From Diacronema lutheri (taxonomy: Eukaryota > Haptophyta > Pavlovophyceae > Pavlovales > Pavlovaceae): 64,000 nt of DNA. Where the stretch lies: NCBI GenBank assembly GCA_019448385.1, contig JAGTXO010000065.1:117747-181746 (forward strand), in the 5' to 3' direction. The position numbers were made by a program, and so were the translations under genes. Below, in pieces: positions 42,413 through 64,000 of this stretch (the first letter of the stretch is position 1; every line of letters starts with the position of its first letter). The notes beneath the pieces are model-generated. The model saw nothing but the letters and a program-made list of their open reading frames with translations. It was not told the DNA's origin and made no database searches.

Positions 42413-42642
42413 ATTAATATTGGCCGGCTTTGAAGGCGGAGGTCAGTGTGGCGAGAAAGGCGTTGGCACATCACGTAGCTTGTCGCCTTGCCCTCGGCTT
42501 GCCCCCGGCACGTGGCCTCGCCGTTTCGCGCCCTCTTCCAACGCAGCGCCAGCTGCGTCACCTTTGCAGTCGCCCAACCCGTCGACACGTGGAAGTCGCG
42601 GAGACTTCGAGTTGCCGCGGCGAAACCCTCCGAAACGCCAAC

Positions 42643-44335
42643 ATGGCCGGGCCGGCGCAGCAGGGCTCGCACGACCAGGACCCGCACCCAGGCGCAGGCT
42701 CCTCGCACCCAGGCGCGGATCTGCGCGACCTTGTGCCACTCATTCAGGGCACCGCAGACTCCGTCCGCCGCATCCGCGCCATTGTCGAGCAGGACAGCGC
42801 CGTCGTGGGCGCCGACGAGCTACGTTACGTTTCGCCGCTCGGCCAGGGCGGCTTTGGCGTCGTCTTCAAGTGCAGGTACACGCCCGCGCCGGGCAACATG
42901 CGTGCGAGCTTGGAGAAGCTCACCGGCCGGCCCGCCGCTGATGGCTCGTTCACCGTCGCCGTCAAGAAGCTCAAGGGCGCGGCGGAGACGCGGCTCGGCA
43001 TGGAGGCGGCGCACGCGGCGGCGAACGGGACGCCGGGCGAGGACCTCGCGGCCAAGGCGGCGCGCGAGCACGCGGAAGCCGTCGCCGAGTTTGCTCACGA
43101 GGTGCTCATGCTCAAGAAGCTCGCGCATCCCAACGTGATCGGCTACGTTGGCTGCGCCGTCTTCCAGGGCGCGCGCGCGCCCGGAGGCGCCGACGGCGAC
43201 GACGAGGACGGCGACGAGCAGCTCGCGCTGGTGCTCGAGTACGCGCAGTACGGCTCGCTCAAGGACATGATTGCGCGCAGCTCGCGTGGCCTCGCCCACG
43301 CCTACCAGCTCGCCGAGGGCCTGCAGTGGTGCCACGACATTGCGCGCGGGATGGACTACCTGCATCACTGCACCCCGCCCATCATGCACCGAGACCTCAA
43401 GCCGGGCAACGTCATGCTCTGCGCGGTGGACGGGCGGCGCGTTGCAAAGGTGGCCGACTTTGGCCTCGCCGCCCTCTGCCTCGAGCGGCGCAAGATCGTC
43501 GCGCGCCAGGCGACCATCGCGCTCTCCCGAGCCGGCGACGGCCAGCGCTCGCGCGTCTACAAGCAGTTCAACACGACGGGCGGCGTCGGCTCGCTGCACT
43601 ACATGGCACGCGCGCGCCCGCGCGCGGCTCAAGCGCGGCGCACGCGCCACGCCGACGCGCGTGAGGCCGACCGCAGGCGCATTCACGCACGTTCGGTCCT
43701 CGCCTGCCGTGCGTCACCTTTCGTCACGCGCGCGTCACCCCCGCCGCCGCGCGCAGGCCCCGGAGAACTACAGAGGCGAGCCGTATGGCGACCACGTCGA
43801 TCAGTATTCATTTGGTGCGCGCCTCCGCCCGACGCGTGACCCGTTCGTCACGCGTGACCGCGTGACCGCGTGACCGCGTGACCGCGTGACCGCGTTGGCG
43901 CGGTCACGCGCGCTGTGCGAAAGCGCGCGCGCGTGCGTTGTGCAAAAGCCGCGCGTGCGCGTGCGTCGGTCGTATGCCCGTCCGCGCCTAACCCGCTCGC
44001 CGTGCCTTCCGCCTGGCCGCGACTTTGGCACCCTGCCTTCCCGCGGCGCGCGCCCTGCACGGCGTCAGCCATCATCCTGTACGAGGTGCTCCTGCGCCAG
44101 CGCGCCTACGCGGGCGAGTACTTGACGGAAGTGCAGATCGCAGATGCGGCCGCCGGCGCGAAACAACTGAGGCCAGCGCTGCCCAAGAAATGGCCGACGG
44201 AGGTGAAGGAGCTGCTCGCCAGGCAAGAGCGCGCAGCGCCACACATCGCATGAGCGGCGCGCGCCGGGCGAGCGTGGCGGGCAGAGGCTGGCGGCACAGC
44301 TCCACTCCCCAACCGCCGCGCGCCACCTGTCGAAC

Positions 44336-44371
<36 letters not shown>

Positions 44372-44564
44372 TTCCCCAACCGCACCCCTGCGCGGCAGAT
44401 GCTGGCATCCATCCCCCGCCGAGCGCCCGTCCTTCAAGCCGATCGCCGCGCAGATCAAGGAGCTGCTCGCGTCGCCCTCCGCCGATCGCGTGCTCAAGGC
44501 GCTCGCCGCCGGCGGCAAGATGGGCGTCCTCGAGAAGCTCGGTCTGCGCTCTGTGGGGCAGTGA
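42643..44564 (+). CDS. Raf/TKL-like protein kinase, four exons
   Basis: Exons 42643-43605, 43757-43814, 44069-44222, 44399-44564; 446 residues. Kinase motifs: GQGGFGVVF (Gly loop), FTVAVKKLK (Lys), EVLMLKKLAHPNVIGYVG (alpha-C and HPNI), HRDLKPGNVML (catalytic loop), DFGLA, then GVGSLHYM|APENYRGEPYGDHVDQYSF, AIILYEVLLRQRAY, and ARCWHPSPAERPSF (subdomain XI Arg). The last three motifs and the HPN motif fit tyrosine-kinase-like Ser/Thr kinases. Two of the three introns need GC donors: ATG|GCACGC and CAG|GCAAGA, both ending in AG; the second intron is GT-AG. Intron 3 contains 35 C before the acceptor. Target pathway unknown. Confidence 0.88.
43851..43895. repeat. 8-bp tandem repeat CGCGTGAC
   Basis: About five copies inside intron 2 of the kinase gene. 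Confidence 0.9.
44337..44371. repeat. C35 homopolymer in kinase intron 3
   Basis: Lies 28 bases before the acceptor GCGGCAG, in the position of the polypyrimidine tract. Confidence 0.9.
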
Positions 44565-45074
44565 AGCAGTTTGCGATGTGGCCCACTGTTGGGTGAACAA
44601 AACTGCTGCCCGTGTGTGCTCTCGCCTGCTCCCCCCTGCTCCTGGTGCCACCCCCATGATACGTGCTACGTATAGATGGTCAAGCCAAATCCGATCAGGG
44701 GCACGATCGCGCCCCGAGTGCAGCGCGGGCCGTTCGGAAGGACGTCCTTGTGAGGGAGCTCTTCGCGTTTGGCGAGCGGGGGAGCACGACGCGCAGCGTT
44801 GCTGCGGCGGCGTGCGGGCGGCGAGCAGCGGTCGGGCTGCTCGCGACGAGGCCGGAGCAGACGGCGCCGTGGCCGCTGGCGCAGGTGACGCGCGCCGACG
44901 AGCCGTAGCGAGCGTCCGTGATCCGCACGGCGGTTGGAGCGGGCCGGCTGGTGCGGCGCGCTCGGCCACGGGTGGCGGCGTGCACGGTCGTGCCGCGCGC
45001 GGCACGCGTCGCCAGCCGCGCGCGACCTGGGCAGAGCCCGCAAAGCGTCGACCGCTGCGCGGCTCGGCCGTGCG
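44565..45074. other. Convergent intergenic region next to the Fanzor gene
   Basis: 510 bp between the kinase stop and the Fanzor stop. A guide (omega) RNA and element end would be expected near the 3' end of a Fanzor gene, but I cannot identify either by eye. No protein gene is supported. Confidence 0.5.
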
Positions 45075-48000
45075 TCAACGCCGGCCGCGCTTCGGCCCGC
45101 GCGCGCTGCCGCCGCCGGCACTGGCGCTGGCAGCTCCGCGGGCGGGGGTGCGGGCGCGAGAGCCGCCGCCGCCACCGCCGCCGCGCCCGCCGCCGTCGTC
45201 GCCACCGCCGTCGCCGCCGCCGCCTCCCCCGCCGTCATCGTCGTCGTCGCCGCCGCCGCCTCCGTCGCCGTCGCCGTCGCCCTCGCCGTCGCCGCCGCCG
45301 CCGTCGCCGCTGCCATCGTCGTCGTCGTCGTCGTCGCCCTCGTCGTCGCCCTCGTCGTCGCCGTCGCACTCGTCGTCGCAGTCGTCGCCCTCGCCGTGCA
45401 CCATGCGCTCCTCACGCTCCCACACCTCGCCGCGCGCCCACCAGGCGAGCACGAGGGCAAAGCGCTCAGGCGTCGACGTGGTGTCGCGCCCGGCCGCGTG
45501 CGCCGCCATGTCGTGCACGTCGTAGAAGATGTTGCGCGCGGCGTTGTAGTCGCGGTGCACGGGCTTCTTGCCGCCGTTGCACGCCGGGCAGATGACGAGC
45601 GCGTGCACCGTGCGCGTGCCGCCCTTTGCCACGGGCAGGCGCGGGTTCTGCGCGAGCTCCGCGCCGCAGCGCTGCAGCCTGCCGCCCTTGGCGAGCCGCG
45701 GCATCGAGCAGTGCATCGACGTGTACGGCTCGGGCACGAAGACGGCCGCGACGCCGCGCCGCCGCAGCTCGCGCAGCAGCCCCACCTGGAAGGCGGGCGG
45801 CGCGCCCTTGGGCTGCGCGCCCTTGTGGTCGCGCAGCCACTTGCCCACGCACACGAGCAGCCGGTCGCGCGTCACGCCGTCGACGCAGTGCGCCGCGATG
45901 AGCGCCTCGGCGACGCGCGCCGCGTTGGACCGCCCGCCGCTGTCGCGCCGCCAGCGCTCCTTCCGGCGCGCCGGCGCGTCGTACACGTGCTCGGCGGCGC
46001 GCTCGCGCACCCGCGCGCTCTCGCGGTGGAAGGCGATGTATTTGCCCGCGTCGAGCACCTTGGCGCTGTGCGCCTCGCCAAGCCGCGCCTCGTCCGCCTC
46101 CACGCTGAACTCCTCGCCGCGCCCGTCCTTGCGCACGCGCCGCCGCGCCGCGTTGGTCTTGGCCGTCTCGCGCGCAAAGCCCGCGGCGCGCGCGCGCGCG
46201 CGCTGCGTGAACTGCCGCCAGACGGCCGCCCGCCCGACGTGCGCAGAGTAGGTGGTGATGTTGCCCATGTTCGGGTCGGCCGCGACGACGACCGCCGCCT
46301 CGACGTCGATCGCCCGCCGCAGCTCGGAGCCGAGCGCGACGGCGATGCGCCCGTCCGGCCGGCGCCAGCGGTGCAGGACGCCCGAGCCGCCGGCCGGCGC
46401 CTGCGCCTTCGGCACGAGGACGGTCCCGACGGCGTGCACGGCGACGCCATCTGTCACCACCGACTTGACGGGCTGCCGGCCCGGGAGCGGCACGCGCGGC
46501 AGCGGCGCGAGGCCAACCCACGAGCGCCGCGCGTGCCACGGCAGATCGGCCGGCGGCCGCTCGCGCCCGGCGTAGTCGAAGACGCGGTTGGAGATGTCGA
46601 AGCGCGTCGCAAAGACCGCGTACCTGACGCGCACGTCCGACATCGGCGGGGTGTTGCCGTTTGTGCCTGTCCACTTGATCGGCTCGCCATCGTGGTCGCG
46701 CAGGTCCAGCGCCTTGAGCCGCGCGCGCAGCTCCTTGCGCTCGTCATCCGAAAGCGTCACCCAGATGGCGCTCGCGGCGAGGCGCACGTTGCGCGGCACC
46801 TGCGCGCAGCGCGCGGCGCGCGAGCGCGCGGGCGCGTGACCAACCTGGCCGCGGGGCGGCGCGCACGGCGGCGGCGCGCGCGCTTGGGCGCTCGGCGGCG
46901 GCAGCGGCAGCCACGCCTCGCGCGCACATTGTGCGTGCGCAGCGGCGCCACATTGTACCGCGGCGGCCGTCCGGTCAGCTGCGTGTGGATGTGCGCGAGC
47001 CGGCAGAGCAGCGCCTGCCCCTCGGCCACGTGCTGCAGGGTGCGGATCTGCACGAGGAAGTAGCGCGTCGTGTGCCGGTCGTAGTTCCACCTTTTCGTGG
47101 GCGTGCACTTGTAGTCGATCTTGTGGAGGACCATGTCGGGCAGGTGGCGGTCGAGCGCGGCGGGGCAGCCGACGCGCGCGCCCTCCACGTCGCCGCGCAG
47201 CAGCCGCTCGCACAGCTCGCGCACGCGCGCGTTTCGCTGCATCTCGGGCAGCGCGACGAGCGCCTCGTCGCGCTCGACTGCCGCGCGGACGACGTCGCGG
47301 AGCAGCCCGTTCACGACGCGCGATGGATGCATCAGGCACGCGGTGGACACCTGCGTCGCCTCCGCCTCGAGGATCTCCGTGAGGCCCACCGCGCAGACGG
47401 GCTGGACGCCCTCGGCCATCTCGCCGACGGCGCGCGCCGTCGCCGCCTTGGTCTGCGCGGCGGCTTGCTCGGCGGGCTTGCCTCGGGGCGCTGCACCGTA
47501 CGTGCTCTCGTCCTTGTGCCAGCCGATGGCCGAGAAGATCGCACGGACGGTTCCCTTGTCCATCGTGGTCGACGTGTGCACGCTGGTCGACGGGCCGCCC
47601 GACGCCGCGCCGACGGCCTGCGCGCTCGCCACCGCAGCCTCGTCGCGCACCACCTTGTTGATGACGCGGTACGCCTGTGTCGTGAGCCTGTGCACGGCCG
47701 CCGCGATGCGCCGCAGCTCCTTCCGCGCACCGGGCTGCGCCGTCACCGCCTGCGGCCCCGCGTTGAGCGTCGAGCGCTTGACCACGAAGCCCGGGAGCAC
47801 GCTGACGCGCGTGCGCGCCGTCGCGCCGCCGGCGGCGCGCGCGCTCGGCGCAGCGGGCTCGTCCACGCGCGCGCGCTCGACGCCGCGCGCGCGGGGAACG
47901 CTCGGCGCGCGCGCGCCCGCGGCGTCGCGCGCGCTCGCGGCGGCACCCGCCGCGGCGCGCTTGCCCGCGGCGCCCGACTCGCCGTGCGCGCGAAGCGGCG

Positions 48001-51000
48001 CCGACGCCAATGCCGACGCCGCGCCCGCGCCGCCGCTGCCGCTGCCCGATACGCCCGCGCGCCGCTTCTGCTCGTCGCGCGTCTTGCGGAACTGGGCGAC
48101 GAGGTCGCTGCTCACGTTGGCCTCAGGCTCCCACGTGTCGGCGCTCTCGTCGTAGCCCCGCCACCTGATCCGGAACTGGAACGTCACCTTCTTGCCCGCC
48201 TTGCGGCGCTCGTCGACGACCGCCTCGACCTCGTACGTGCGCGCCTCCTCGTCGACGCTCGCGCCCGCCGCGCTCGCGCCCGTGTCCGGCCACCCAGCGA
48301 CCGTGCCGCCCAGCCTCTCGGCGGCCGCGCGCAGCTGCCGCTCGCGCTGGGCGGCCGCGGCGCCTCGCGCGACCAGCGCGGGCAGCATGCCCGCGCCGCC
48401 CGCGAGGCCGTGCGCGCCGACGCTGGCGGTCATCAGCGCGTCGAGGCACGCGAACGTTGCGAGCGCACGCGCGCCATCGTCGCCGCCGCGCGGCTGCGAG
48501 CGCACGACGGGCGATGGCCGCGGCTCCCCCTCGGCCGCGAGCAGCGGCCAGATCGCACTGGCCAGCGCGACGGCATGCGCGCCGACCGCGACGGCCACGT
48601 CCGCGTCGAGCGGCGCAAAGTCGTAGCGCACGAGCGCGGCCGGGCGCGAGTCGTCCGTCGGCCGGTCGGCGACGAGCAGCCCGACCGGGCGCGGCGGCTC
48701 GCCGGACGGCGCGGCGACGGGCACGCAGAGGAGCACGACGAGCAGGCGCGGCGTGCCGCCGAGCAGCGCGCGCGCGGCATCCGCCCCGTCGGCTCCGCCG
48801 CGCGCGGCCGCGGCGAGCAGCTCGGCCGCGCGCGTCGGGCCCAGCGCCGTGCGCGCGTCCTTGCGCGCGCGTGCGCGGGCCGTGTACGCGGCGCAGGCGT
48901 CGTCGAGCACCGCCGCGCTGGGCGCGGTGCCAGTCGTCGCCCACGCGCGCAGCGCGTCGCGCACCCGCGTGACGATCGCCTGGTCGACCGCCGCCTCGCC
49001 GGCAGCGTGCGCCGGCGCGCACGCCGGCGGTGCGGCGGCAGGCGCGAGCGCGGGCGCGCCGTCGGCGCCGTCAACGCCGACGGCGCCGTCGGCGCGCCGC
49101 CACGCGAGCTTCGCCTCGATCTGCTGCCGGACGGCGTGGCAAAGCCGGTCGATGCCGCGCGCGTCGTCGAGCGCGGCCAGCGCGTCCTCAGCGGCGGGAC
49201 GGCCGCTCGCGTCCGCGACGGCCTGCAGGCAGAGCAGCGCGGCCGCACGCGCGTTGCACGCGCTCTGCGGCTCGGGCGCGAGCGCGAGCTCGAGCTCGAG
49301 CGGCGACGCGCCTCGCGCCGCGGCGATCGCGTCCATCAGCACGTCCAACCGCTGCACCAGCGCCCTGTGCGCGTCGCGCGGCGCGCCCGTCGACGGCGCG
49401 CGCGAGCGCGTCGCCACGAGCCCGAGCGCGCGCGCCGGCGCGCCCGCCGGCGTGTGCAGCACGAGCAGCGCCGCGCCCGCCAAGCTCGCGTTGCGCGTGA
49501 CGAGCGCGAAGATGCGCGTCGCCTCGTGCGCGCCCACCGACGCCCAGATCGCAGCGCGATCGGCGTCCGTCTGCGCGTCGCACAGGTCGCGCACGTCGTC
49601 CGGCGCGAGCAGCGCGCCGCCGCCGGCGGAGCGCGCGACGATCGCCCGCGCCTCCGCCACGAAGACGGCCTGCGGCAGGTCGGCGTGGCGCGCGTCGACG
49701 ATGGCGCGCGTCGCGTGCACGCCGAGCTCCACGCCGCGGTAGAAGGCGCGCGCGTTGGCCGCGCGCGCGTGCGCCGGCCGTCCGTCCGCGTTGCGCCTCG
49801 CGCGCGCCTGCTTGCTCGTGCGCGCGAGGCCGTCGCGTGGCGGTGGCGGCAGCGTGGCGAGGAAGCGCGCGGCGGGCGGCGGCGCGCGCACGCCGCGCTG
49901 CCGCCGTGCGATGGCCGCGAGCCGCCGGCCCGCCGCGCTGCCGCCCGCGCCGACGTGCTGCCGGCGGCCGAGCGCCGCCGGTGGCGGCGGCGGCGGCGGC
50001 GCGGCGGCGGGCGGCGGCGCGACGGCGGGCGGCGGCGCGGCGGCGGGCGGCGGCGCGGCGGTGGGCGGCGGCGCGGCGGCGGGCGGCGGCGCGGCGGCGG
50101 GCGGCAGCGGCGGCGGCGCGGCGGCGACGGCAGCACCAGTCGGCTTGTCCGCCCACGCACCCGAGACTCTGTCCCAGACCTTGCCCCATGGCGCGCGCCC
50201 ACGCGGCCGCGCGAACTGCCCCGGCTCGAGCGCCTGGCCGCGCTTGGCGGCGGCGGCGGCGGCAGGGGGCGGGCGGCCGGCGCGCCAGTCGAAGACAGGT
50301 GCAACCGTGGCGGCAGGCGCCGAGTGCCGCGCGTCGGTCACAGAGCGCGTGGTGCGCGCGGCGACCGTGGCACGCCTGGCGGGCGGGCGGTGAGCAGCGC
50401 CCGCCGGCGCGCCGGCGGGCGCGGCCGCCTCGAGCCCGGCGGAGGCGCCGCGCTTGCGCTTGCGCGTGCCGCCGCGCGTGCGCCTGCGCGCGCGCCCGCC
50501 GCGCGCCCGTTCGGCCTGCGCGTCGCCAGCCGCGTCGCCGGCCGCGTCGCCGCGCCGCACGTAGACGACCGCGAACGCCTCCTCGCCGGTCCCGTCGACG
50601 CCGCCGCGCGCGCGGCGCAGGACCGACCGCCACTGCAGCCGCCGCGCGCGGCCGGGCTCGCACGCAAACGAGCGCCCACCGCGCCTGACGACGGCCACAA
50701 AGTCGTCGTCGCGCCGCCCGCGCCGGCGCGTGCGCAGCAGCACGCACTGCACGTCGAGCCAGCCCTCGTGCCAGTCGGCCGTGCTGGGGGCGACGCGAAT
50801 CGACTGCGGGAGCTCGACGCCAAAGCCGGCGAGGCGCACGATGTGCGCGACGATGACGCTCGAAATGGCGGGGGCGCTCGACGGGTCGCCCGCTGCAGCG
50901 AGCACCGCCCCGCCCCAGTGCTCACGCGTGACGCAATCCGCGTCCTCGACGTGCACGTGCGCCACGCTCGCGCCGAGCTGGTGCAGCAACGCGCAGATGT

Positions 51001-54000
51001 CGGCGTCGACCGTCCTCTCCTCCTCGGCCGCCTCGGCCGTGCCGCGGGCGGCGGCGTCGCCTGCCGGCTGCCCGAGGTACGCGATCGCCCGCTCGACGGC
51101 CGCGCGCTCCGCACGCGCTGCGCTGTCGATCGCCGCATTGCCGACGGGCGCGCGCAGCGCCGCGATCGCGTCTTGCAACGCCGTCGCGTCGCCCGTCGCC
51201 GCCGCCGCCGTCACCGCCGCCGCGCTCGCGGTGCCGTGCGCGACGGCGTGCAGCGCGGCGGCGCGCGCGGCGGGGATGCGCCCGTCCAGCGCGAGCACGA
51301 GCGGCGGCCCGGCCGGCGTCTGCTGCCGCCGGTGCCGCCGGCTCGCAGCCGGGTGGTCGGCGCGCGCGCGCTCGAGCCGCGCGCGCCGCTCGACGACGCG
51401 CGCCCAGAAGGCCTGCACCCTCGGCTGCGCGAATGCAAGCCAGCCGGCGCCGCGCGTCACGACGTGCACGACGATCCGGTCCTCGTGCCTGAGGTACTGC
51501 ACGTAGAGCGCTTTGCTCACGCCGAGGACGTGCATGCCGAGCTGCAGCTGATCGCGGTGCGGCTGCGGCGGCCCGTCCTCGTGCGCCGTGGCGCCCGCCT
51601 TGGTGAGCGTCTTCACCTCGACGAGGACCTGCTCGTTGTTTTCGGGGAGGATGGCGAGCCCGTCCGGCGAGAAGGCGAACGGCGCGCTCTTGTCGTGCGG
51701 GTCCGCACGCACCATCGGCAGGTTGCACACGACGGTGATGCCGTACGCGGCCGCCAGCTTGCGCAGCGCGACGGCCTCGCCGAGGATGCCCGCGGTCGTC
51801 GCCTTGGTCCGCACCTCGCGCCGCCGCCGGTGCACGTACTCGTCGGTGAGCGTCTCGTGCGCGACGCCGGCGTTGTCGTTCACGACGTCGCCAACCTTGC
51901 TGCCCGTGACCTCCTCCCATCGCTCGTCGTGCCAGCGCGGGCTGCGCTGCGCGGGCGCGCCCGCGCCGACGGCGTCGAGCACGCGGCGCAGCGCTGTGCC
52001 GTCGGGCGCAGCAGGCACGCGCGCGCGGTCCTGGGCCTCGCGAGCGTCGAGGACGCGGCCCGGAGTGGAATCTTGGGGTAGGTCGAGCTTGCTCGCCTCG
52101 CCGTAGCGGCTCTCCAGCTGGCGCGGTGCGTCGGCAGGGCCGCCGTCCGTGCGCGCACCCGACGCGCCCGCCAGTGCACGCGGCGCAGCGTCCGAGGCGC
52201 CCGCCGCGCCCGCGCCGCCGCCAATCGCGCCAGCGCACGCGCGCGCCGCGACCTGCGGACGGCCAGCCGCAGGGACCTCGTCCGCTCGGCCGGCCGCTGC
52301 GTCGGCCGTCCGCTTGGCCACCTCGCGCACGTCTCCGAGCGCGAGCGTGGCTGGCGCCGTCGAGCTCCCGTGGTCTTTGTCCCAAAATTTGAGCAGCCCG
52401 CCAAGGAAGGGCGTGCCCGTCGGGCGGTCCTCGGGCACCTCCGCCAGGATCGCGTCGACGCGCAGCGCGGCCGCCACATCGCAAAACGCGCGCGCGGCGC
52501 GCGCCATCCGCTCGGCGCGCGCGCCGCCGTCGTCCGCCGCGCGGCGGATGGCGTGGCTCACGTGCGCGACGCGGAGCGAGACGACGGCGTGCGCCGGCGC
52601 GTCGGCGCCCGTGCCGAGCGTGTGCCGCCGGATGGCCAGCTGCCCATCGCCCATGCGCGGCGGCAGCGACGCGCACGCCGCGACGGTCGTCGTGCCGGCC
52701 GCGCTGTCGCACAGCCAGCTCGCCTCGCCGCCGCCCGCAAACTCAAAGGTCGCGAAGCCCTCGCGGCCGAAAAGCGCGACGAAGTGGTCGAGCACCGCCT
52801 TGTTGATCGCGCGCGCCGCCGGCCGCGTCGATGCGCCGCGGGCAGCGCCACCCGCCGCGCCGCGCGCATCGCTGCACGTCGCAGGGCAGGTGCAGCCGGA
52901 CGCGCGCACGCCGTCCGACCGCGTCCGCGGCAGCTCGAGCTCGCGCACCTTGGGGCAGAACCAGAGCGGGTTGGACGCCTCGAGGCACAGCACGACGAGC
53001 CGCCCGTCCGTGCCGGCCAGCGCGCGCGCGTCGCGCAGCAGCTCGACGGCGAGCTCGGACGTCGCCGCGTGCACCGCCGGCTCGCCCGTCGCGCGGTCGG
53101 GCGGGAAGAGGCCACCGCCGACGAGCGGGCTGGGGCAGCGGCCGAGCATCACGAGCAGCGGCGGCGGCGGCGTCTGCGGCGCCTGCTGCCCGACCGCAGC
53201 CGCCGTCAGCCCGGCCAGGTCGGAGCTCGTGCGGAGGGCCTTGAGCGCGACGCGCGAGCCGGTGCCCGCCTGCTCGGAAAACGTGGCGAGCATGGCGCAC
53301 GTGCTCGCCCTCGCGCCGCACTGCCAGCTGACGCGCGCGAGGAGGCCTTCCAGCGTGTCGTTTTCGCGCGGCCGCGTGACCGCGTCGAGCGCCGCCGGGC
53401 CGAGCTGGAGGCTGCCGGGCGTGACGCACAGCACCGCCTCGTGGTAGGCGCGCAGCAGCTCCCTCGGCAGCTGCTCGGCGGGCGTCGCCGCCTGCCCGCC
53501 CACCCACCGTGCACCGTGGCCGCCGTCGCCCGCGCCCGCGAGCCGCACCGCCGGCCCGCCCGTGATCGCCGAGGTCGGCGGCGTGCCGAGCGCGTCGACG
53601 AGCGCGCGCACGGGCGCGACACGCCTGCGCGCAGCGTCCGCGCCGACGGCGAGCGCGGCGATCTGAGCGCCCTCCCATGCGCGCTCCCTCGCGTCGTCCC
53701 GCGCGGCCGCCGGCGCGGCGCCCGGCCGCGCGCCGGGCGGCACCGCGCACGCCGCCGCGACGACCTCCGCGCGCGCGCCGGCGGCGTCGGGCGCGTGCAG
53801 CTGCGCGATCGCGCCAAAGAGCGCGGCGGCCGAGCGGTAGCGGCCGTGCGCCGCGACGAGCGCGTAGAGCACGCGCAGCGCGGCCACGCCCGCCTGGTCG
53901 GGCGCGTCGTCAGCGATTTGCTCGACCTCCCACGTGCGCGTGGGCGGCGGGCTGCCGTCGGCCGGGTCCGGACGCAGCGCCCACGCGCGCTCGACGATCG

Positions 54001-55648
54001 CGTTGAACACGTCGCGCGCGGCGCCCTCGTCAAACTCGGCGGCGCCCGCCGCGTGCGCGCACCACCCGTGCACGCGCGACGTGGGCGCGTCCACGGCGCG
54101 CTGCACGACGAGCACCGCCGGCCGGTCGACGCAGCCGAGGCTCACCGCCGCGTGCTTGCCCTCGAGCAGCGCCGCCGCCGCAGCCTCGACCAAGGCGTCA
54201 CCAGGCGCGTCGCCGACGACGACGGCACAGCCGTCGCCGTACTCGGCCTGCATCGCGGCGACGCACGACGCGACAAAGTCGCCGCCCGCGGCCGCCGCGT
54301 GTCGCGCCGCCAGCATCCGGCGCGCGATGGCAAGCCAGACGTACTCGGCCGGCGCGCGCGCGGCGCGCGCGCGAGGCGCGCCGGCCGCGCCGCGTGCGCC
54401 CGCGCGTGCGCCTCCAGCGGCCGCAACGGCCGAGGCGGCTGGAGCGGCGGTGAGCGTGCGCCGCGCGCGCTTCGCCGGCCGCGCGATGGGCGATGCACCC
54501 GCCATCGCACCGCCCGCAGCAGCCGGTGCGGCCGCCACAGCGCCCGCCGCAACGCCACTCGTCACGACGCCCGTGGCGGGCGGCGCGGCGTCGGACGCGG
54601 CCGCCTCGACGGGCGTCGCGCAACTACCGCCAGCGGTCGCGGACGCGCCCGGCGACGCGTCGGCGAGGAGGTGGCGCAGCACGCCGCGCGCGAGCGCGAC
54701 TCGCACGGCGAGCGTCAGCGCGCGCAGGCGGTCGGAAGGCGAGGCGTCGCGCTCGGCGTCGGCGGACGTGGCGGCAGCAGGCGGGGCGGCGGGCGGCACG
54801 GCGGCGGACTGGGCGGCCGCCGGCGCAACCTCGTCGGCCTTGGCCAGCCAGACGAGCCCGGCGACTGCGAGCACGACGCTGTACGCGCCGACATCGTCAC
54901 CCGCAACGCGCGCCAGCCGGGCGTGGGCGTCGGCCTCGGACACGGCGACGTGGAAGAGCACGTCGTCGCGGGCAGCTTGCTCGGCAAACTGACGCAGCTG
55001 CTTGGCCATCGTCACGCCGGCGACGGACGCCTCGCCCGCCTCTGCCTCGACCTGCTCGTCCTGGCCGATGGCGGACGCGCCGGCCTCGGCGCCAGCGTCG
55101 AGTGTCCGGCGGCGCTCGAGGGCAAAGCCACGCACACAGACGCTCTGGAGGCCGCCGAGCGCGCCCGCCTTCTCGTGCAGCGCGCACGACAGCTCGACCA
55201 CCGAGTCCACGCGCCTCGCGGCGGCGCCCCCCCGCTCGCCGCGCGTGGCCGCGCGCACGACGAATACCGTGAATTGCGCGCGCTTCGCCGCGCGCGCCGA
55301 CGCGCACGCGTGCTTCAGGAGCCGGCAAAGCGCGGGCCTTTGCGCCGCTGCGCCCCGCGTGCACAGCAGCAGTTGGCCGCGCTCGTCGCCCAGCTCCTGC
55401 TCGACGGCGGCCTCGAGCGCGTCGTCCGTCAAATCGCCGTGCTCCGTCGAGGCGAGCGCGCGCGCAGCCGCGAGCGCCAGCTCGCCTGCGCCCGCGCGCC
55501 GCCGGCGGCGCGCACCGGCGGGCGCGTGCGGCGCCGACGCGTGTGACGACGCCGCCGCGTCCGCGCGCGCACACGCGGCGCGCAACGCCTCACGCGCCGA
55601 GGCGGCCGCGCGCGCCCTGGGCGCGAGCTTCAAGAACGTGCGCGCGGC

Positions 55649-55712
<64 letters not shown>

Positions 55713-58700
55713 TCGCCCGCGTCGCCGGCCGGCGGCGGCGGTGGCGGCGGTGGCGGCGCGGCCACGGCGGCGGCAGCAGCGGCGGCGGCGGCGGTGGCGG
55801 CGGCGGCGGCGCCCAGCGCGGGCGGCGGCGGCGTGGCGGCGGCGGTGGCGGCGGCGGTGACGCCAGCGGCGGCCTTGGCGCCGCGCGTCTGCGGCGGCGT
55901 TTCGGCGCCATCGGGGCTGCCCCCGCCGCGCACCGCGCTCGTGACCGCGCAGACGCCGCCCGGCGCACGATCGCTGGCCGCGCCGGTCAGCGCGACGCGG
56001 AGGCGCTCGCCGACAGCGTACATGTCCGCCACGCTGAACGTGCGCGGCGCGGACGAGCAGCCCGCCGCGGCGAGCGCGTCGTTGAGCGCGCCCACTATCG
56101 CGAGGCCGCACGTCGCGCCACGCTGCGCCGCCTCGTTGAGCAGCAGCGCGCGGCGCACGCGCGAAATGTCGAGACCCGCCGCGTGCAGCGTGGCAGTTAT
56201 CGCCTTGGCGAGCATGAGCGCCTGCCTGCAGGGCGACGCGAGCGTGTCGACGAGCACCGCGTCGTAGCGATGCTCGCCCGCGCGCGCGACGCGCACAAGG
56301 CGCAACGCGGTGAAATGGCCGGAGGCGAGCTGCGCGCCGTCGTCACCGCCCGCGCCGCCGCGCTCGTCCGACGGGCTCCACACGCCGATGACAGCCTGCG
56401 TTGTCGCCTCGCTGCGCAGGCGGTGCAGCAGCGCGGCGCGCTCGGCGTCGTCCTGAAACACCGCGGGTTGCGCGGCGAGCGGCACGTGGCAGACATGCCC
56501 GCCGCCGGCCTGCCCGTGCACGCGCAGCACGACCTCGCAGCACGCGTCGACGGTTGAGGCGAGCATGTCGCCGCTGGCGATGCGCTCCACCTCTGCCTGC
56601 GGGAGGCCGGCGCTCGCGGCGGCGGCGGCCAGCCGGCGCGCAGCCGCGTCGCCCGCCCACGCAAGCAGCGCCGAGTTGGCGGGTTGGAGGGGAAGCTCAA
56701 GGGCGGCTGGTTCGGTGGCGGTAGCCTCGTTGGCAACGGGCACGTTGGCGGTGCGCGCGTTGGCGGCGGGCGCGGCGGCGATGGCTGGTGGGGCGGAAGA
56801 CGCGCCCGCGGCGGCGGGCGCGGACGCGGCAGCGGCAGCGGCTAGTGGGGCGGGGAAAACGCCGTCGGTGGCAGGCGCGGAGGCGAATGCAGGAGCAACT
56901 AGTGGGGCGGGAAAATCGGCGGCAGGCGCGAAGGCGGATGCAGCAGCGGCTAGTGCGGCGGGGAAAACACCGTCGGCGGCAGGCGCGAAGGCGGATGCAG
57001 GAGCGCCCAGCGGGGCGCAGAAAACACCGTCGGCGGCAGGCGCGAAGGCGACAGCAGCAGCGGCCAGTGGAGCGGAGGCGCAGGGCCACGCGCGCGCCAG
57101 CCGTGCAAGCCCAAGCCGCGCGCGAGCGACGCACGCGCCGATGGCCGAGGCGGCGGCGCAGGCCACGACGTGGCCTGGCACCGGTGTGGCCAGCCGCTCG
57201 CGGGTGTGCACGTCGAGCCGCGCCCCACGCCAAGAGCGGCGGCGCGCTGAACGGAGGCGCGCGACCCCGATCGATCCGCCCGCGCACGCGCGCGCCGGCT
57301 CAGTGTGGCCAACGCGCGCCGCTATGCAAGGCGCGCGCGCGATAACGGCGGCTGTCGGCCGTGGCGTGCGCGTGGCGGCGCCGCGGCGACGGGCGCGGCA
57401 CACGAGCCGCTCGGGCGCGCCGCCGCCGCGCGGCACGATGTCGAGCAGCACGGTCACGCCGCGCGCGCGCGCGACCGCCGTGCACGCGAGCCGCACGGGC
57501 AGCGGCGGCCCGTCCGGGCGCGCGAGCGCCGCCACCTCGGCGTCGGTGAGGCTGTGCAGCTCGCGGCGCGCGCGCGCGAACGCGGCGATGTCCGCGCGCA
57601 GCTCCGCGTCCGTGCCGAGCGCGGCACGCGCGTGCACGGGGAGCGACGCGCGCAGCGCGTGGAGCACGCCGCCGCGCGCGCCGCGCGGCGCCGGCGCGCG
57701 CTCGCGCTCAGCGCGCGCGGCGCGCGTGAGCTCGCGCACCGCGCGCGCGAGATTGCGCCGCGCGGCCGCGACGGGAGGGCTAGGTGCGCGCGCGCGCCGG
57801 TTGTAGCGCGGCCGCGCCGAGTCGAGGGGCGGCGGACGCGGTGCGTACGCCGCGGCGCGGCCCGCGCGCCAAAAGGCCGGCGGCGGGCGCAGCTCCGTCG
57901 CGTCGACCGCGGCCGCGAGCGCGCCGAGCGCGGCGTCGCTGTCGCCCGCCGCGTCGGCCGCGTCGACGAGCACGAAGAGCGCGCCGAGCGCGCGCGACGC
58001 GGCCGCCTGCGCGGCGGTGGGGCGGGCGCAGGCAGCGACGCATGCGGCCGCCATGCCGCGCGCCGCGGCGAACGCCGGTGACGTGACGGCCGCGCCGATG
58101 GCAACGGCGGCGGCGGCGACGGTGGAGGCGGCAGCGCCGGCGATGGAGGTGGCAGCGGCGGCGGCGCTTGCCATCGCGCGGCGCGCGAGACGCGAGGCGC
58201 CACCGACCGCCGCCGCCGCAGCGCGCGCTGCGCGCGCGCCGGTGGCGCGCATCGTCGCCGCGCCAGGCGCCGCCGCGCCGACGCCGCCGGCGCCCGCGCC
58301 GTCGCCGCTCTCGGCCGTGCAGGGCTCCGATGGCGAACCCGGCGTGCGCTGGCGCGTGATGCGCGCGCCGAGGCGCGCGCTCCGCGCCGCGCGGCCGGCG
58401 ACGTCGAGGAAGCGCCGTGCGCGCGCCGCGCGCAGGCCACGCGCGCGCGGCGGCGCACCGACAGGCGCCGAGCGCCGCGGCGCGCACGCCGGCGCGTCGC
58501 TGTCGGGTTGCGCAGCGCGCGCGCGGGAACTCGGCGCGGCGTGTGCGGGCGGCGGGCGCGCGCCCGCGCGGCGCAGAGGCGCGAGGCGCCGGCCGCAGAC
58601 GAGGCGTGTGCGCAACCAGGACGGCGAGGGCCGCAGGGCGCCGTCGACGTCGCGCATCGGCGGGCCGCGAGCCCGCCGCGCAGCCGTGCGGCGCGCGCGA

Positions 58701-61700
58701 GGCGCTCGGCGGCGCGCGCGCCGCACGGCGCGCGCGGCGGCGCGCACGCCAGCGACGGCTGCGGCCACGCCGCGCGCCAACACGGCCGCGGCGTGCGCCA
58801 TCGCACCGAGCACGGCGCGTGGCGCGCCGAGCAAGCGCAGCAAGCGCGACGCCGTCGCGCGCGCCGGCGCACCGTGTGCAGGGGCCTCGCCAGCGCCAGC
58901 ACCGACGCCGCCATCGCCGCAGCCGCAGGTGGCGTCGCCGCCGCCGCAGGCGTCGCGACGGACGCCGCCGCCGCCGAAACAACCGCCGCACACGTCGCCG
59001 CCGACGTTGCCACCCCAGCCGCCGTTGCGTGCGCAGGTGGCTGCGGCGCGTGCGTGCGGGAGGCGTGCCGTGCGGCGCGCATCACACGGGCTGCGCGACG
59101 CGAGCGACGCCGCCGGGGTCCCCGCTGCGCCAGGCGCGCCGTGCGCGCCAGCCTCGCCGGCCTCGCCGGCGCGCGGTCGCGCGCTCGCCTCGACGTGGCC
59201 GCCTCCGCCGCCATCGCCGCCGTCGAACCGGGCGGCGGAGGGCTGCCGCTCGAACCGCTCGTCGGCGTCGGCCGCCACCGCCGCCTCGCGCTCCGCCGCC
59301 GCGGCGGCCGCACGGCGCGCGTGGCGGAGCGCGCGGCCGCCGTCCGCTGCGCGGCGTGGCGGCGCGGGCGCGGGCTTCGGCGCGCGCGGCCCCTCGGCGC
59401 GCTCGCGGAGCACGGCGAGCGGCGTGCCCGTGGCGACGCTCGTGCAGACGCGCCGCAAGGCGGCGCTTACGCACGCGTGGACGACGCGCGCCGTCCGCTT
59501 GTCGGCGGCGCGCGCGGCGCGGCGCGCGGCCTTGGCGGCGGCCTTTTTGGCGCGCCTCTGCTCCGCCTGCTCCGACAGCGCGCGCGCCTGGCGCTCGGCT
59601 GCGAGCGCGTCCTCGGGCGAAACGGTCGGCCTCGGCGGCCGCGCGCGCGCGCTGCGACGCTGCGCGCTGCGGCGGTCGGACGGCGGCTGCCGCGGCGGCG
59701 AGGACGGCGAGCGCGAGCTCGGCGTGGGCGACCAATCGCCGCTGACGGTTGCGAGCGGCGCAAACGGGTTGTCGTCCCCGCGACCCGCGGCGTGCGACAG
59801 TGCACGCGGCGTCGGGCGCCGGCCGACCGCTGGCGGGCCCCACTCGGACGGCGGCTCCGAGGGCGAGCGCGCCGTCGGCGCCGCGCGTTGCGCGGCCGGC
59901 GGCGCCTCCCGGTCCAGCGCCGCCTGCTCTCTCGCCGCGGCCTGCTCGTCACCCTCCGGCACGCCACGCGGCGCGAGCACCGCGGTGGCGCAGCGCGTCG
60001 CGTTGAGCAACGCCGCCTCCATCTGCCGCACGCTGGCCTTGGCGCACGCCACACCCTGTCTCGCCCGGCGCAGCGCCTCGTGCGCGCGGCGCACATCCGC
60101 GTCGGCATCTTCGCGCATGCCAAAGTGCGCCTGTTGCAGCCGCAGGTCCGCAGGGCGCCCCTGCGCGCGAGGGGCACGGGCGCGGCGGCGCGCAGGTGAC
60201 GGAGCTGGCGCGCCGTTCTGCGCTGCGCGCACGCCAATCGACGGGCGCGCGCGCGGCGGGGCGCGCGCGCGCGCGCGCGCGCGCGCTGCCTACCCAGCCG
60301 CCGGCCGGCTCGCGCGAGCGCGCCAGCTGCTCCGCCGCCTCGGCGTCGAGCACGCGCTGCTGCGCCTCCTCCTCGCCCAGTGCAGCGAGGTGCAGCCGGC
60401 GGGCTGCCTTGCGGCAGTTGCCCTCCGCCTTGCCCACGGCCTTGCGCGCCGCGTCGACGGGGTCGTCGTTGGCTCTGGCGCGCCTGCGCTTGCCCTTGTC
60501 GGCGGGCGGCGGCTTGGCGCGCTGCAGCGTGCCGAGCGCGTCGTCGGCTCCGCGCGCGGCCGCCCGCGGGCGGCGGGCCCCAAAAAGCGCACCGGTCGCC
60601 GTGCGCGCCGCGCAAGCAACGACCAGCGCTGACATGCCGGCGAAGACCGCACCGCCCAGCGCCACGGTTGCCACGATGCGCAGCGTCCCGTGCGCAAGCC
60701 GCGCTGCCTCCGCCGCTTTGGCGGCCTCGCGCGCGCGCGCATCGGCGGCTCTCATCTCGTGCAGCAGCCCGGCCGCGCCGCTCGCGCCGTCGCGGCCGCG
60801 CGCGAGCTCGCACAGCACCGCCGCCGCGCGCCGCGTGGGCTCGCGCGCGAGCAGCTGCGCGCCGCCGTCGGGGCGCAGCTTCTCAACGAACTCGACAAAC
60901 GTCGCGTCGCGCCAGAGGGACATGCGGAAGGCCCTGTGCACCGCCCCCTCCTGCTCGCGCATCCGCCGTGCCGCCCGCCTGCCGTCGCGCGCGTGCGCGT
61001 GCGCGGCCGCGTCGAATCCCGCGACGCCGCGCTGCGCGTCGCGCGCGGCCGACGACGGCGCCGCCGCGCTGCCCGCCAAGGGCGCCGCAGCGGCGACGCG
61101 CGCGTGCGGAGCGACGGGATCGCCGGCGGCCGGCGGCTCGGCGCGCTGCGGCGTGCCGTTTGCTCCGCGCGCGGCCGTCCCGGGGGAGATGGCCGCGATG
61201 GCGCCGCCAGCCGCGCCGCGCGCCAGCCACGCGCATAGGCTGCCGACGAGCTCGCCGAGACCCCCGACGGTCGCCGCGGCGGCGAGTGCGCCGGGCTTGC
61301 CGGCCGACAGCGGCTCGCGAGCGTCGTCGTCGCAGCCGCCGGCACCCGTCTTGGCGAGTGCGTCGCGCTCGCCCTCGACGCCCGCCACGACCGCCGCCCC
61401 TCCGTCGTCCGCCGCGCCGGCCGCGCGCGCGGCCGGGCGCAGAGGAGGCGTGCCGGTGCAGCCGTCGCCGCTCGTCTTCGCCGTTTCCTCCACTTTGGTC
61501 ACTTCGTCGCCACCTGCGCCATCTCCGACGCCGGGGCCCTTGGTCACGCTTGCCGCCATGCGCGCCGTGCCCGCCGGCCAGCCCGCCGACTGCTCGAGCG
61601 CGGCGGCGAGCGGCGCGACGCGCGTCGACTCGGGCGCGCTCTCGTCATCGGGCTCGAGCGCGTTGTGCAGGCGCGCGAGCGCGCGCTCGACGGCCGCGGC

Positions 61701-62033
61701 GCCACTGCCGGGGGCGCGGCTCGCCGCGCGCACCGCGCGCCGCCAGGCCGGCGCGAACATGAGCGCCGGCTCGAGCGCCGCGAGCGCGCGCGCCTCGCGC
61801 GCGTCGCTCGCGCCGAGGCGCGGCGGCACGCGCGCGGCTCCGCGCGGCGCGGTGCCTCGGAAGCGTGGGCTCAGCGTGTAGGCGAGGTGCTGCGGCACGC
61901 CGCGCGCCTCCGCGCGCGCGCGTCCGTCCTCGACCTCGCGCCGCGCCTTCGCGATCGCCGGCGTGGCGCGCGCGAGCCAGTCGGGGTCGGCGGGCAGGTG
62001 GATCACGACGAGAATCGGCGCCCAGTCCCAGCC
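45075..62033 (-). CDS. Giant polyprotein: Ulp1-like, YqaJ, chromodomain, Fanzor nuclease
   Basis: Three clear exons: 62033(or earlier)-60294, 60160-46928 (13.2 kb, 4,411 codons without a stop) and 46799-45075. Introns are GT-AG, phase 0: GGCTGG|GTAGGC to GCGCAG, and AAT|GTGCGC to GCGCAG. Splicing joins the end of the long exon (LTGRPPRYNVAPLRTHN) to VPRNVRLAASAIWVTL inside one Fanzor domain, so the nuclease and all upstream domains are on one chain of more than 5,500 residues. Order: unknown N-terminal domain, membrane helix near 60.65 kb, Arg/Ala-rich regions, Ulp1-like protease (56.1-56.4 kb), degenerate Ulp1-like modules, YqaJ exonuclease (51.5-51.95 kb), chromodomain (48.1-48.24 kb), Fanzor (45.4-47.8 kb), acidic Asp/Gly tail. 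Poly-Ala and PPPAAAP linkers separate modules. The upstream part is frame-broken. Mobile element or domesticated gene is undecided. Confidence 0.7.
45430..47795 (-). other. Fanzor (eukaryotic TnpB-like) nuclease domain
   Basis: Begins about LPGFVVKRSTLNAGPQ and spans the 46800-46927 intron. Marks: helical N-part (AAVHRLTTQAYRVINKVV), VVTDGVAVHAVG (the TDG strand typical of Fanzors), RuvC-I VVVAADPNMGNITTY (Asp, near 46275), RuvC-II FVPEPYTSMHCS (Glu, near 45735) and RuvC-III HRDYNAARNIF (Asp, near 45550). A Cys-rich insert with CPAC stands where the zinc finger is expected; the first knuckle has one Cys rather than CxxC. Known Fanzors are RNA-guided DNA nucleases. All catalytic acids are present, so activity is plausible. 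Confidence 0.85.
46800..46927 (-). other. Intron inside the Fanzor coding region
   Basis: 128 bp, donor AAT|GTGCGC, acceptor GCGCAG|GTG, phase 0. It is needed to join the N-terminal helical part of the Fanzor to its RuvC part; reading through gives an Arg-rich tail and a stop at 46757. Confidence 0.75.
48070..48240 (-). other. Chromodomain
   Basis: TYEVEAVVDERRKAGKK, then FQFRIRWRGYDESADTWEPE and a C-terminal helix (SSDLVAQFRKTRDEQ). Tyr, Trp and Trp sit at aromatic-cage positions, so methyl-lysine binding (for example H3K9me or H3K27me) is expected. It lies about 90 residues before the Fanzor N-terminus. Confidence 0.9.
48430..49600 (-). other. Two degenerate Ulp1-like modules
   Basis: Module at about 49.5-49.2 kb: strands around ALLVLHTPAG and ALGLVATRSR, then PEPQSACNARAAALLCLQAV. 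Module at about 48.75-48.4 kb: LLVVLLCVPV, GLLVADRP, ALVRYDFAP, then VRSQPRGGDDGARALATFACL. Both repeat the strand-strand-helix-Gln-loop-helix order of C48 proteases, but the catalytic set is incomplete (second module has Asp in place of Cys). Assignment is by pattern. Confidence 0.4.
50010..50115 (-). repeat. PPPAAAP-encoding tandem repeat
   Basis: A GGCGGCGGCGCGGCGGCGGGC-like 21-bp unit repeats about five times and encodes a PPPAAAP linker in the polyprotein. Confidence 0.85.
51460..51955 (-). other. YqaJ/lambda-exonuclease-like nuclease domain
   Basis: QRSPRWHDERWEEVTGSKVG, TAGILGEAVALRKL (Glu), FAFSPDGLAIL (Asp), VLVEVKTLTKAG (Glu-x-Lys) and HRDQLQLGMHVLGVSKALYV (Gln-x-Gln). These are the ordered active-site motifs of the PD-(D/E)xK YqaJ/lambda exonuclease family, which resect DNA ends for single-strand annealing. 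Confidence 0.88.
53870..54260 (-). other. Third degenerate Ulp1-like module
   Basis: KHAAVSLGCVDRPAVLVVQR, a spacer with GWCAHAAG, a helix (ARDVFNAIVERAWAL), then EQIADDAPDQAGVAALRVLY. The helix start matches the DCGV segment of C48 proteases with Cys replaced by Ala. Pattern-based. Confidence 0.35.
55633..55712 (-). repeat. GGC-type triplet repeat encoding poly-Ala
   Basis: A long (GGC/GCC)n run encodes more than 20 Ala in a row between the protease region and the rest of the polyprotein. Confidence 0.9.
56060..56410 (-). other. Ulp1/SENP-like C48 protease domain with intact site
   Basis: AVIGVWSPSD, GHFTALRLVRV (His, near 56316), YDAVLVDTLAS (Asp, near 56250), then ALLLNEAAQRGATCGLAIVG (Gln and Cys, near 56120). 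Order and spacing fit the C48 catalytic set His-Asp-Gln-Cys. Members remove SUMO-like tags; several large eukaryotic transposons carry such domains. Polyprotein self-processing is a possible role. Confidence 0.7.
60161..60293 (-). other. Intron before the 13.2-kb exon
   Basis: 133 bp, donor GGCTGG|GTAGGC, acceptor GCGCAG|GGG, phase 0, joining LARSREPAGGW to GRPADLRLQQAHF in a helical region. It starts with a GC dinucleotide array. Confidence 0.7.
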
Positions 62034-63913
62034 GCGGGTTCTTGTGACGGTCGGGCACGACCCACACGAGCAGCACCGTGCCCTCCGCGCCGCACGCCGC
62101 CTCGTAGAATCCTGGGCTGCGAGCGCCAATCGGGCCTGACGCGCAGCGCCCGCGCGTGGTCGATGGCGGCGGCGCGGTCGCCATTGAAGTGAACCGTCGT
62201 CACCTCGCCGATGACGGACCGGCCGGACCGCCAGCAGAACACCGCGTCCGCCGACCCGCCGGCGATGGCCGCGAGCGATTCGGGCGCGGCGAGCCGCGGC
62301 AAGCCCTCGAAGGCGGCAAAGTCCTCGTGCGCATTGTACACGCCGCCCCAGCCGTCGTGCGCGTACGCGCGCGCGGCCGCTCGTACCGCGCGCGGGCTGG
62401 TTCTCCACGCCCGACGTCATGTGCCATGTCGTCCCCGCGAAGCCGGGCTCGCCCAGCTCGGCCCGCACGACGGCACCGTACCCCGCGCCCTGCGTCGGGG
62501 CGGCGAGGTGGTGCATGCCCGCGCCGGTCACAGCCCTCCGTGCGCTGCCGCGTGACGATCGTGCCCGTCGCGTGCGCGAAAAGCGTGTCGACCACGGCGG
62601 GCGCGCGCCCGCTGTTCGCCCGTAGCCGCGCCCTGCCCGCTTTTAGCTGCTCGGGGTCCTTGGCGTCGTACACGCGCGCGTCCGCGTCGCCCTCATCAGG
62701 CGCAGTGTAGACGCAGCGGCGTTCGAGCGGCGCCGAGCCACCGCCGTCCGCCGCCGCCGGCGAGGTTGGCGCCGCGCCCGCCGCCACCGCGCTCGTCGCC
62801 GCCGTGCCCGTCGCCACCGCCGCAGCCGCCGCGCCCGCGGGGTCGTCGTCCCCGTCCTCCGCGCCCTCCCCGTCGTCAGCGGTGGTGGCGTCGCCATCGT
62901 CCCCGTCGCCCTCGCCCCCGCCGAGGCTGCTGAATGGTCGGGGCCCCACGCCGAGGCGGCGCGCCGCTGCGGCGCACGCGGCGGTGGCGCTCGCGACGGC
63001 GGCCTTGGCGCCGCCGCGCCGCGCGGCCTGGCCGCCGTCGACAGCGCGCGGCCTGCAGCGCCCGTGAGCGCGTCGAGCGCGGGCCGTGCGTGCGATGCGG
63101 TCGTCGGGCGCGCGCAGCGCCGCCTCGACGGCCTGCAGCAGCCCGTCGGGCGCGGATCCGCCGACCACTGGCATCGCACGCCTCGGCGAGCCGCGCGGCC
63201 TCGGCGAGCCGCGCGGCCTCGCGGGTGAACGGGCCGAAGCGCCTGGCGCGGTCGCCGAGCAAGAGCGCCGATGGCGGCGCGGAGCGTGCGCGCGCGGGTC
63301 TCCTCGTACGCGGCCGTCGTGAGGCGCGCGAGGCGCGCGTCCAAAGCCTTCTTGATGTCGACAAGGACACTCGCGCGGCGGCGTAGAGCGTCGATGCGCT
63401 CGCCACGACCTCGGCCGCGACTGTTGCCGCGGCGAAGCAACACACGCGGCCCCACTCTGCGGGGCGCCTTGAAGGCATCGTGGGCGGCGCTGTTCTCTGC
63501 CGATGCGCTGCGCAAGCTTCTTGATGAGCACGCCGGCGCCGTGGCGTACGCCGATTCGCCGTTGCCCAAGGTGCGCGAATCGGCGAGCAGGGCGAGCGCG
63601 GCCGGCGCGGCGCGCGCCGCGCTGCGCGGGCGGCGCGAGGAGCGGTACGCCGCCGTCCAGTGCACGAGGCCGCTGGACGCGCGGAGGCAGAGCGGTAGCA
63701 CGACCACGAGCACCTGCCCAAACCGGTCCGCATCCGCGCATGCTTTGCGCAGGTTGCGCAGCGCCACCTTGAGCGCATGCTGCGAGCACCCCGTGTCGCC
63801 CACCCTACCCTGCTCGTGCCGAAATCCGCGTAACGCAGCAGGGCGATGAGGCAAGTGGATGGGACCACGTGGGGTTGGGTATCTCCCGGCGACAGAATGG
63901 TGCTGAGGGCCAC
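62034..63913 (-). pseudogene. Frame-broken 5' part of the polyprotein gene
   Basis: Protein-like segments follow each other in order but in changing frames: CSQHALKVALRNLRKACADA, LLLGDRARRFGPFTREAARL, PDGLLQAVEAALRAPDD, AVVDTLFAHATGTIVTRQR, GMHHLAAPTQGAGYGAVVR, YNAHEDFAAFEGLPRLAAPE, GFYEAACGAEGTVLLVWVVP, then PILVVIHLPADPDWLARA. Some shifts need only one base (for example near 62533 and 62375, within G or CG runs). No splice sites fit most of them. Either the 5' part is decaying or the sequence has indel errors here. The gene may extend beyond the window. Confidence 0.5.
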
Positions 63914-64000
63914 GAGAAACTGTCCGAGCCGCCCCGCCCGCCGTGCAAAGCGTCCTTCACGGAGTCCTCCATCTGCAGACTGTTGGCACGTCAGTGTCCG

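Follow-up and report, generated by a model that had tools for sequence, protein, structure and literature searches.

A chromodomain in one open frame with a Fanzor nuclease inside a giant multicopy element of Diacronema lutheri

On contig JAGTXO010000065.1 of the haptophyte Diacronema lutheri, a chromodomain and a Fanzor nuclease lie in one open frame that runs across a single phase-0 intron. The pair was analysed in a stretch of 64,000 nucleotides (the window, to whose full length plain positions refer) and is carried by a mobile element of about 31 kb. The chain is quite probably translated as one protein, and we lean, with less assurance, towards the pair forming the C-terminus of a long protein with several domains, encoded by this element, which has recently multiplied and carries a putative helicase of the Helitron lineage. 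The parts of the pair are:

48083..48235, minus strand: chromodomain of the HP1/CDYL type (PF00385, E 7.5e-12)
47810..48082, minus strand: Ala/Arg/Ser-rich linker of about 90 residues, in open frame
46928..47809, minus strand: N-terminal part of the Fanzor, in the chromodomain's exon, with coding-type G+C content
46800..46927, minus strand: phase-0 GT-AG intron of 128 bp, its junction present in KFE25_006464
45078..46799, minus strand: RuvC/TNB exon of the Fanzor (exon 2; PF07282, E 4e-6; relative P0002)
46275..46277, minus strand: RuvC-I Asp, within AADPNMGN
45729..45731, minus strand: displaced RuvC-II Glu, within VPEPYTSMHC, six residues ahead of the first zinc-type Cys
45549..45551, minus strand: RuvC-III Asp, within HRDYNAARN
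45078-45423, minus strand: acidic/Gly-rich tail of the Fanzor exon
45075-45077, minus strand: Fanzor stop codon

One open frame across an intron

The chromodomain frame is free of stops down to 46928, where the intron, bounded by GT and AG (46927-46800), connects it in phase 0 to the Fanzor frame. G+C content at codon positions 1/2/3 (GC1, GC2, GC3) is 0.66/0.47/0.97 over 48050-48223, which covers most of the chromodomain, 0.72/0.51/0.94 in the N-terminal part of the Fanzor and 0.75/0.54/0.96 in the core of exon 2; within the intron (0.81/0.91/0.88) the coding pattern is lost. The linker gives 0.84/0.81/0.93, and its codon contrast is weak because GC2 stands at 0.81 beside a GC3 of 0.93. The splice junction THN/VPRN recurs in the D. 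lutheri GenBank protein KFE25_006464 (P0003, contig C69), which derives from another copy and joins an N-terminal piece of the Fanzor, including the splice site, to three SAM domains. In this protein a host gene model has apparently captured transposon exons. The genes of D. lutheri were annotated by BRAKER2 with RNA-seq (PMC8379373).

Both partners are recognized by their profiles. PF00385 matches residues 4019-4069 of the frame 46757-60289 (minus strand) with 45.4 bits against a cut-off of 25.1, and a sequence search of the PDB with the chromodomain returned the CDYL chromodomain 2dnt first (2.8e-11), followed by CBX5/HP1. The cage-type residues Y (48233-48235), W (48161-48163) and Y (48152-48154) are Y15, W39 and Y42 of the joined chain, which we take to be the aromatic cage positions. 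In the Fanzor frame (45075-48122, minus strand), the TNB profile PF07282 scores 27.3 bits, narrowly above its cut-off of 26.3. The DG of the ‘TDG’ strand lies at 46446-46451, and four zinc-finger-type cysteines are present, the first pair being spaced C-x13-C rather than CxxC. The C-terminal Fanzor motif with its C4 zinc finger, D-X(125-275)-[TS][TS]xx-C4-X(5-50)-RD (Bao and Jurka, 2013; PMC3627910), was found by regular expression and spacing, and the displaced Glu sits where the positional rule for Fanzors places it (PMC10711439). The NCBIfam profile guided_TnpB reached 12.1 bits (E 0.085), far under its cut-off of 100. Pfam gave no match in 46928-48082, so 46928-47809 is assigned to the Fanzor N-terminus from its position and size and from the joined gene model. 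A relative, P0002, shows 55% identity to the Fanzor within TNB and 50% across the whole alignment; its three acids, its four cysteines and the DG of its TDG strand are all preserved, and it has no Pfam match. It begins at the residue that matches the start of exon 2, which may reflect a conserved exon start or, alternatively, the gene caller's choice of start.

A preliminary description made from the letters of this stretch had proposed a chromodomain with aromatic residues some 90 residues ahead of a Fanzor with three RuvC acids and a TDG strand, on one chain over a phase-0 intron; it had also suggested that the chromodomain could steer integration or cutting to marked chromatin. The domains, their spacing and their residues were all recovered, and they lie in a multicopy element of which both ends were located. 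Of the one chain, the single open frame and the junction stand, and translation as a single product is likely. The in-frame arrangement is confirmed; the pair forms the C-terminal part of a 13-kb open frame and is no standalone unit.

The arrangement is repeated across the genome, which comprises 43,492,796 bases in 103 contigs. Genome searches were made for TNB and for the chromodomain, with the best 150 candidates scored in each; 120 of 148 TNB rows were assigned to the giant-element family, by score alone, and 146 of 150 chromodomain rows likewise belong to it, the four strongest, located elsewhere, being left out. Among the matches listed, a TNB lies 2447-2476 bases downstream on the same strand for 90 of the 146 chromodomain rows, at exactly 2468 bases in 62 of these pairs; 56 chromodomain rows and 30 of the 120 TNB rows are unpaired. 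One of these 30, at C29:418955, carries a chromodomain when read, and at two others (C59 and C53) none was found by regular expression.

The genome also holds at least two further Fanzor families, of the TSQDCSKC and TSKLCSRP types (L001-L008, L055, L059, L060 and others). The TSQDCSKC type is RGG-rich, and at one locus no chromodomain motif was seen in the 3 kb upstream. A second D. lutheri Fanzor family aligns with the Fanzor of the window over the TNB region at 28-29% identity.

The element that carries the pair

Beyond the pair itself, the following parts of the element were located:

44670..64000, minus strand: window part of the mobile element (19.3 of about 31 kb), with a sharp 3' end at 44670 and the remainder past the contig end
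46928..60289, minus strand: long open frame upstream of the intron, 13 kb open
51524..51934, minus strand: YqaJ/lambda-exonuclease-like nuclease domain, with matches under the curated cut-offs
44670..45074, minus strand: interval of 405 bp from the Fanzor stop to the 3' end of the element, where a guide RNA would be expected
L029:5985-8392, minus strand: helicase in two overlapping frames on the 5' side (PF05970, 1.8e-24; PF21530, 6e-13)

In the 14 fetched copies that include a 3' flank (L015-L028), resemblance to the window without exception breaks off at 44665-44671, and beyond this boundary their flanks differ from one another. At its other side the window ends with the contig, at 64000, still inside the element. 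Comparison of C6, C1 and C2 placed the far (5') end at C6:31052, for an element of about 31.05 kb, and paired end matches at C9:2907807-2938842 and C4:9299-40362 give 31.0-31.1 kb. Shortened copies in which both ends are apparent, from end-match pairing only, measure 26.5 kb (C3), 21.6 kb (C4) and 12.6 kb (C28). Among the matches listed there are at least about 100 copies, and the first 20 fetched are 97.5-99.9% identical to the window.

The sequence TATATA directly adjoins the 5' end in nine of ten rows, or eight of nine distinct places (L047 and L049 share one flank), so that a sequence rule is visible; at the 5' junction of the C6 copy a second partial copy of the end comes first and TATATA follows. 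By eye, three of the four copies with both flanks lack a target duplication and the fourth has one of 13 bp. Of 20 flanks retrieved by pattern, 19 have CTATAC as the 3' terminus and one has CTATAA, and none of these 20 shows the CTRR end of Helitron1. A 7-bp hairpin lies about 28 nt from the 3' end. Exact matching of the 5' 70 bp to the 3' 200 bp revealed no inverted repeat of at least 8 bases.

The long frame has coding-type GC over most of its first 9.7 kb, to about 56.6 kb, with dips near 50, 54.5 and 55.7 kb and a weaker pattern beyond. Its YqaJ-like domain was matched by TIGR03033 (E 3e-5, 24.2 bits against 68) and PF09588 (E 0.0012, 19.6 bits against 22). The helicase on the 5' side appears from its sequence to be of the Pif1 type and the Helitron lineage, the nearest PDB entry being the Helitron transposase Helraiser (4e-25, against 6e-6 for PIF1 chains). 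A UCH-type ubiquitin hydrolase is also encoded on that side (PF00443, 4e-8). The Helitron Rep profile PF14214 has one match in the genome, at C63, outside the element, and the scattered matches to permissive HUH and YxxxY patterns, including one in the long frame near 50963, were taken as chance. For want of a Rep in the Pfam-scanned frames, a canonical Helitron was set aside and the element is not filed as a Helitron.

Three further origins were considered and rejected. A non-LTR (non-long-terminal-repeat) retrotransposon was suggested by one copy, L019, whose 5'-side match reaches only 48698, and by the single duplication; it was set aside because the ends are fixed and the apparent shortened copies keep both. 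An association with telomeres was raised by contigs C1 and C12, which start exactly at the last base of the element (C6 likewise, with one base differing, and C26 and C29 within 13 bases), and we read these starts as assembly breaks at a repeat boundary. A viral origin was dropped, as no relatives of the Fanzor exon, helicase, chromodomain exon or P0002 were confirmed in viral_contigs.

Some observations concern the surroundings of the element. In L042 and L044 the 5' flank stops where a member of another repeat family terminates (window 41552-42412; also L019, L058, L060, L021 and L027), and copies of this family end in a AAGCGTCGTTAG-like sequence followed by TAT; in these two loci the giant element directly abuts the AAGCGTCGTTAG-type ends. 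About 2 kb inside the 5' end lies a near-perfect palindrome of 870 bp, 92% self-inverse (L029:8889-9761, equal to C6:28188-29060), with 57-62% G+C against more than 70% over most of the element. Outside the 3' end, a long C run is found at about 44337-44371, some 300 bp away, and a protein-kinase gene (42418-43839, plus strand; PF00069, 6.7e-22) at about 0.8 kb. Next to the C6 copy, at a distance of some 130 bp from its 5' end, L032:1883-3151 (minus strand) reads by eye as the gamma subunit of plastid ATP synthase.

Alternatives and a possible mechanism

Several results weigh against a single working protein, and they are taken here together with the alternatives they bear on. The best of these alternatives, which we nevertheless consider rather unlikely, is that two proteins are made: the chromodomain would belong to the long upstream protein with its YqaJ-like nuclease, and the Fanzor would come from an internal promoter or start, or be released by a protease. 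KFE25_006464 indeed begins at an internal Met past the chromodomain, within the N-terminal part of the Fanzor, and since it starts there it backs the intron only. No transcript was found over the chromodomain-Fanzor span. The weak codon contrast of the linker points the same way, as do the UCH-type hydrolase of the element and, near 56 kb in the long frame, a Ulp1-like stretch seen by eye only, where Pfam has no match. On the other side, the frame from chromodomain to intron is unbroken by stops or frame changes in the window and in 13 of the 14 copies L015-L028 (the exception is L023), GC3 in the linker remains high, and the distance between chromodomain and TNB is fixed in the paired copies.

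It is less probable still, and in our judgement improbable, that the fusion is dead: domains once joined, present copies being relics or passengers, and the chromodomain having no role in the action of the Fanzor. Residues were checked in 22 of 24 fetched family copies (L057 and L058 were left out for poor alignment outside exon 2), and their choice from the TNB list biases the count towards copies with a Fanzor. All 22 retain the acids D, E and D, the four cysteines and the GT and AG of the intron; 16 extend as far as the chromodomain, and 15 of these retain Y, W, Y. A stop falls at the cage Trp of L023, and L056 has a stop in exon 1 and another in exon 2; exon 2 of L054 is put out of frame by an insertion, and the tail of L012 lacks one base. 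A 21-bp deletion at 47629 in L027 leaves the frame intact. Among the matches listed, 44 of 146 chromodomain frames fall short of 4000 amino acids. Where the ratio of nonsynonymous to synonymous substitution rates (dN/dS) could be computed for the window against L054 or L056, it is 0.67-2.5, and exon 2 of L057 and L058 likewise gives values above 1, so that selection on the fusion is not apparent within this genome. Such figures suggest that the copies diverge neutrally, as would be expected of any transposon after insertion. The close identity of the first 20 copies, together with frames of at least 4000 amino acids in the other 102, argues for a recent spread from a source that had the fusion. 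That the frame is an artefact of DNA above 70% G+C, where stops are rare and unrelated stretches seem joined, is very improbable: a frame of 1787 amino acids without a Pfam domain does occur on the opposite strand here, yet the codon-position pattern, the independently seen splice junction and the significant domains on both sides of the join all speak against this.

The remaining points of this kind concern distribution, structure and machinery. Looked for among relatives, as the preliminary description had advised, the Fanzor was found and the fusion was not: P0001 and P0002, on contigs of 2435 and 2305 bases, extend over no more than exon 2, so that the fusion is known from one species, and a protein search for it in others matched only KFE25_006464 among the best 8000 candidates. 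By regular expression, no chromodomain motif was found at four loci of two other D. lutheri Fanzor families with at least 3 kb upstream. PDB sequence searches with one copy and with a profile gave no solved Fanzor and Cas12f1 at 0.015 only, and the sister family L002 likewise gave no solved Fanzor by sequence; AlphaFold models, with pLDDT (predicted local distance difference test) of 41.6 and 45.2, were unusable for judging the Fanzor fold of WED, REC, RuvC and TNB. No Rep domain was found in the Pfam-scanned frames of the element, where a very divergent or much-interrupted one could escape, and no other transposase was recognized. Nor was a guide RNA found by folding of 44670-45120 or by Rfam over 44000-46000. 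The structured RNA for which the preliminary description had suggested small-RNA sequencing within 44.5-45.4 kb was not recovered: five pieces over the folded part gave z-scores of -0.2 to -1.1 against shuffles, with no excess, and Rfam had no match at E 0.1.

A role for the Fanzor and the chromodomain can be sketched from related systems. At TnpB loci the guide RNA runs out past the 3' end of the element. By analogy with the cut-and-copy model for TnpB (PMC10432273), an RNA transcribed across the 3' end would take its guide from flanking DNA, the Fanzor would cut the matching empty or rejoined site beside a TATA-type sequence, and repair would copy the element back. If the sequence at the 5' junction corresponds to the neighbour motif of TnpB, TATA would be that motif. 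Such flank-guided cutting and restoration falls, in our view, somewhat short of an even chance. The chromodomain, from the usual role of this domain, may tether the nuclease or the whole machinery of the element to chromatin marked by methyl-lysine, such as that around old copies and repeats, which we regard as possible and rather doubtful. The full combination is more speculative again: a giant Helitron-like element moved by a chromatin-tethered RNA-guided nuclease, in which one long protein would unite the YqaJ-like nuclease, chromodomain and Fanzor, the chromodomain setting the Fanzor on marked chromatin and the Fanzor, with guides from the flanks and beside a TATA-type sequence, cutting empty sites so that copies would be restored or spread. 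With chromodomain and Fanzor naturally in one frame, this recently spread element offers a testable object for asking why eukaryotic transposons retain RNA-guided nucleases and how such nucleases manage chromatin, as well as a natural model for coupling a reader of chromatin marks to a compact RNA-guided nuclease.

Comparison with known systems

The nuclease resembles Fanzor1 (PMC3627910; Saito, 2023, PMC10432273) in its C-terminal motif, TNB, displaced RuvC-II Glu and carriage by a mobile element. Fz1 proteins are mostly of 600-700 amino acids (PMC11423790). The nuclease of the window departs from Fanzor1 in sharing its frame with a chromodomain, in the great length of the frame upstream and in the C-x13-C spacing of the first zinc pair. 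In the literature searched, no description of haptophyte Fanzors was found, and this Fanzor itself may well stand in the supplementary list of some survey.

The element is closest to the Helitron2-borne Fanzor1 elements CRe-1, -2 and -3 of Chlamydomonas (PMC3627910), with which it appears by eye to share a mostly absent target duplication (one of four copies here has 13 bp), and with which it shares hairpins near both ends, a short fixed sequence at the 5' junction, an intron-bearing Fanzor gene and, if TATATA is counted as part of the element, a 5' end in T. It is set apart from them by its size of 31 kb, a Helitron-lineage helicase without a recognized Rep, the 3' end CTATAC, TATATA in place of TTTT, and the chromodomain; an asymmetric inverted repeat was not found here by exact match.

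Chromovirus integrases carry a chromodomain. Adintoviruses have an rve integrase with a C-terminal chromodomain (PMC11071296), and in both groups, as here, a DNA-cutting enzyme of a mobile element is carried with a chromodomain. There it lies C-terminal to a DDE (rve) integrase, whereas the present element has it on the N-terminal side of an RNA-guided RuvC nuclease. The earlier view that no Fanzor with this partner had been described agrees with the literature searched, in the accessible parts of which (supplements of surveys being outside its scope) no Fanzor- or TnpB-chromodomain pairing was found and papers using both words do so unrelatedly. We regard the element as a Fanzor-bearing transposon of known kind, in which the chromodomain partner in frame appears to be the new part.

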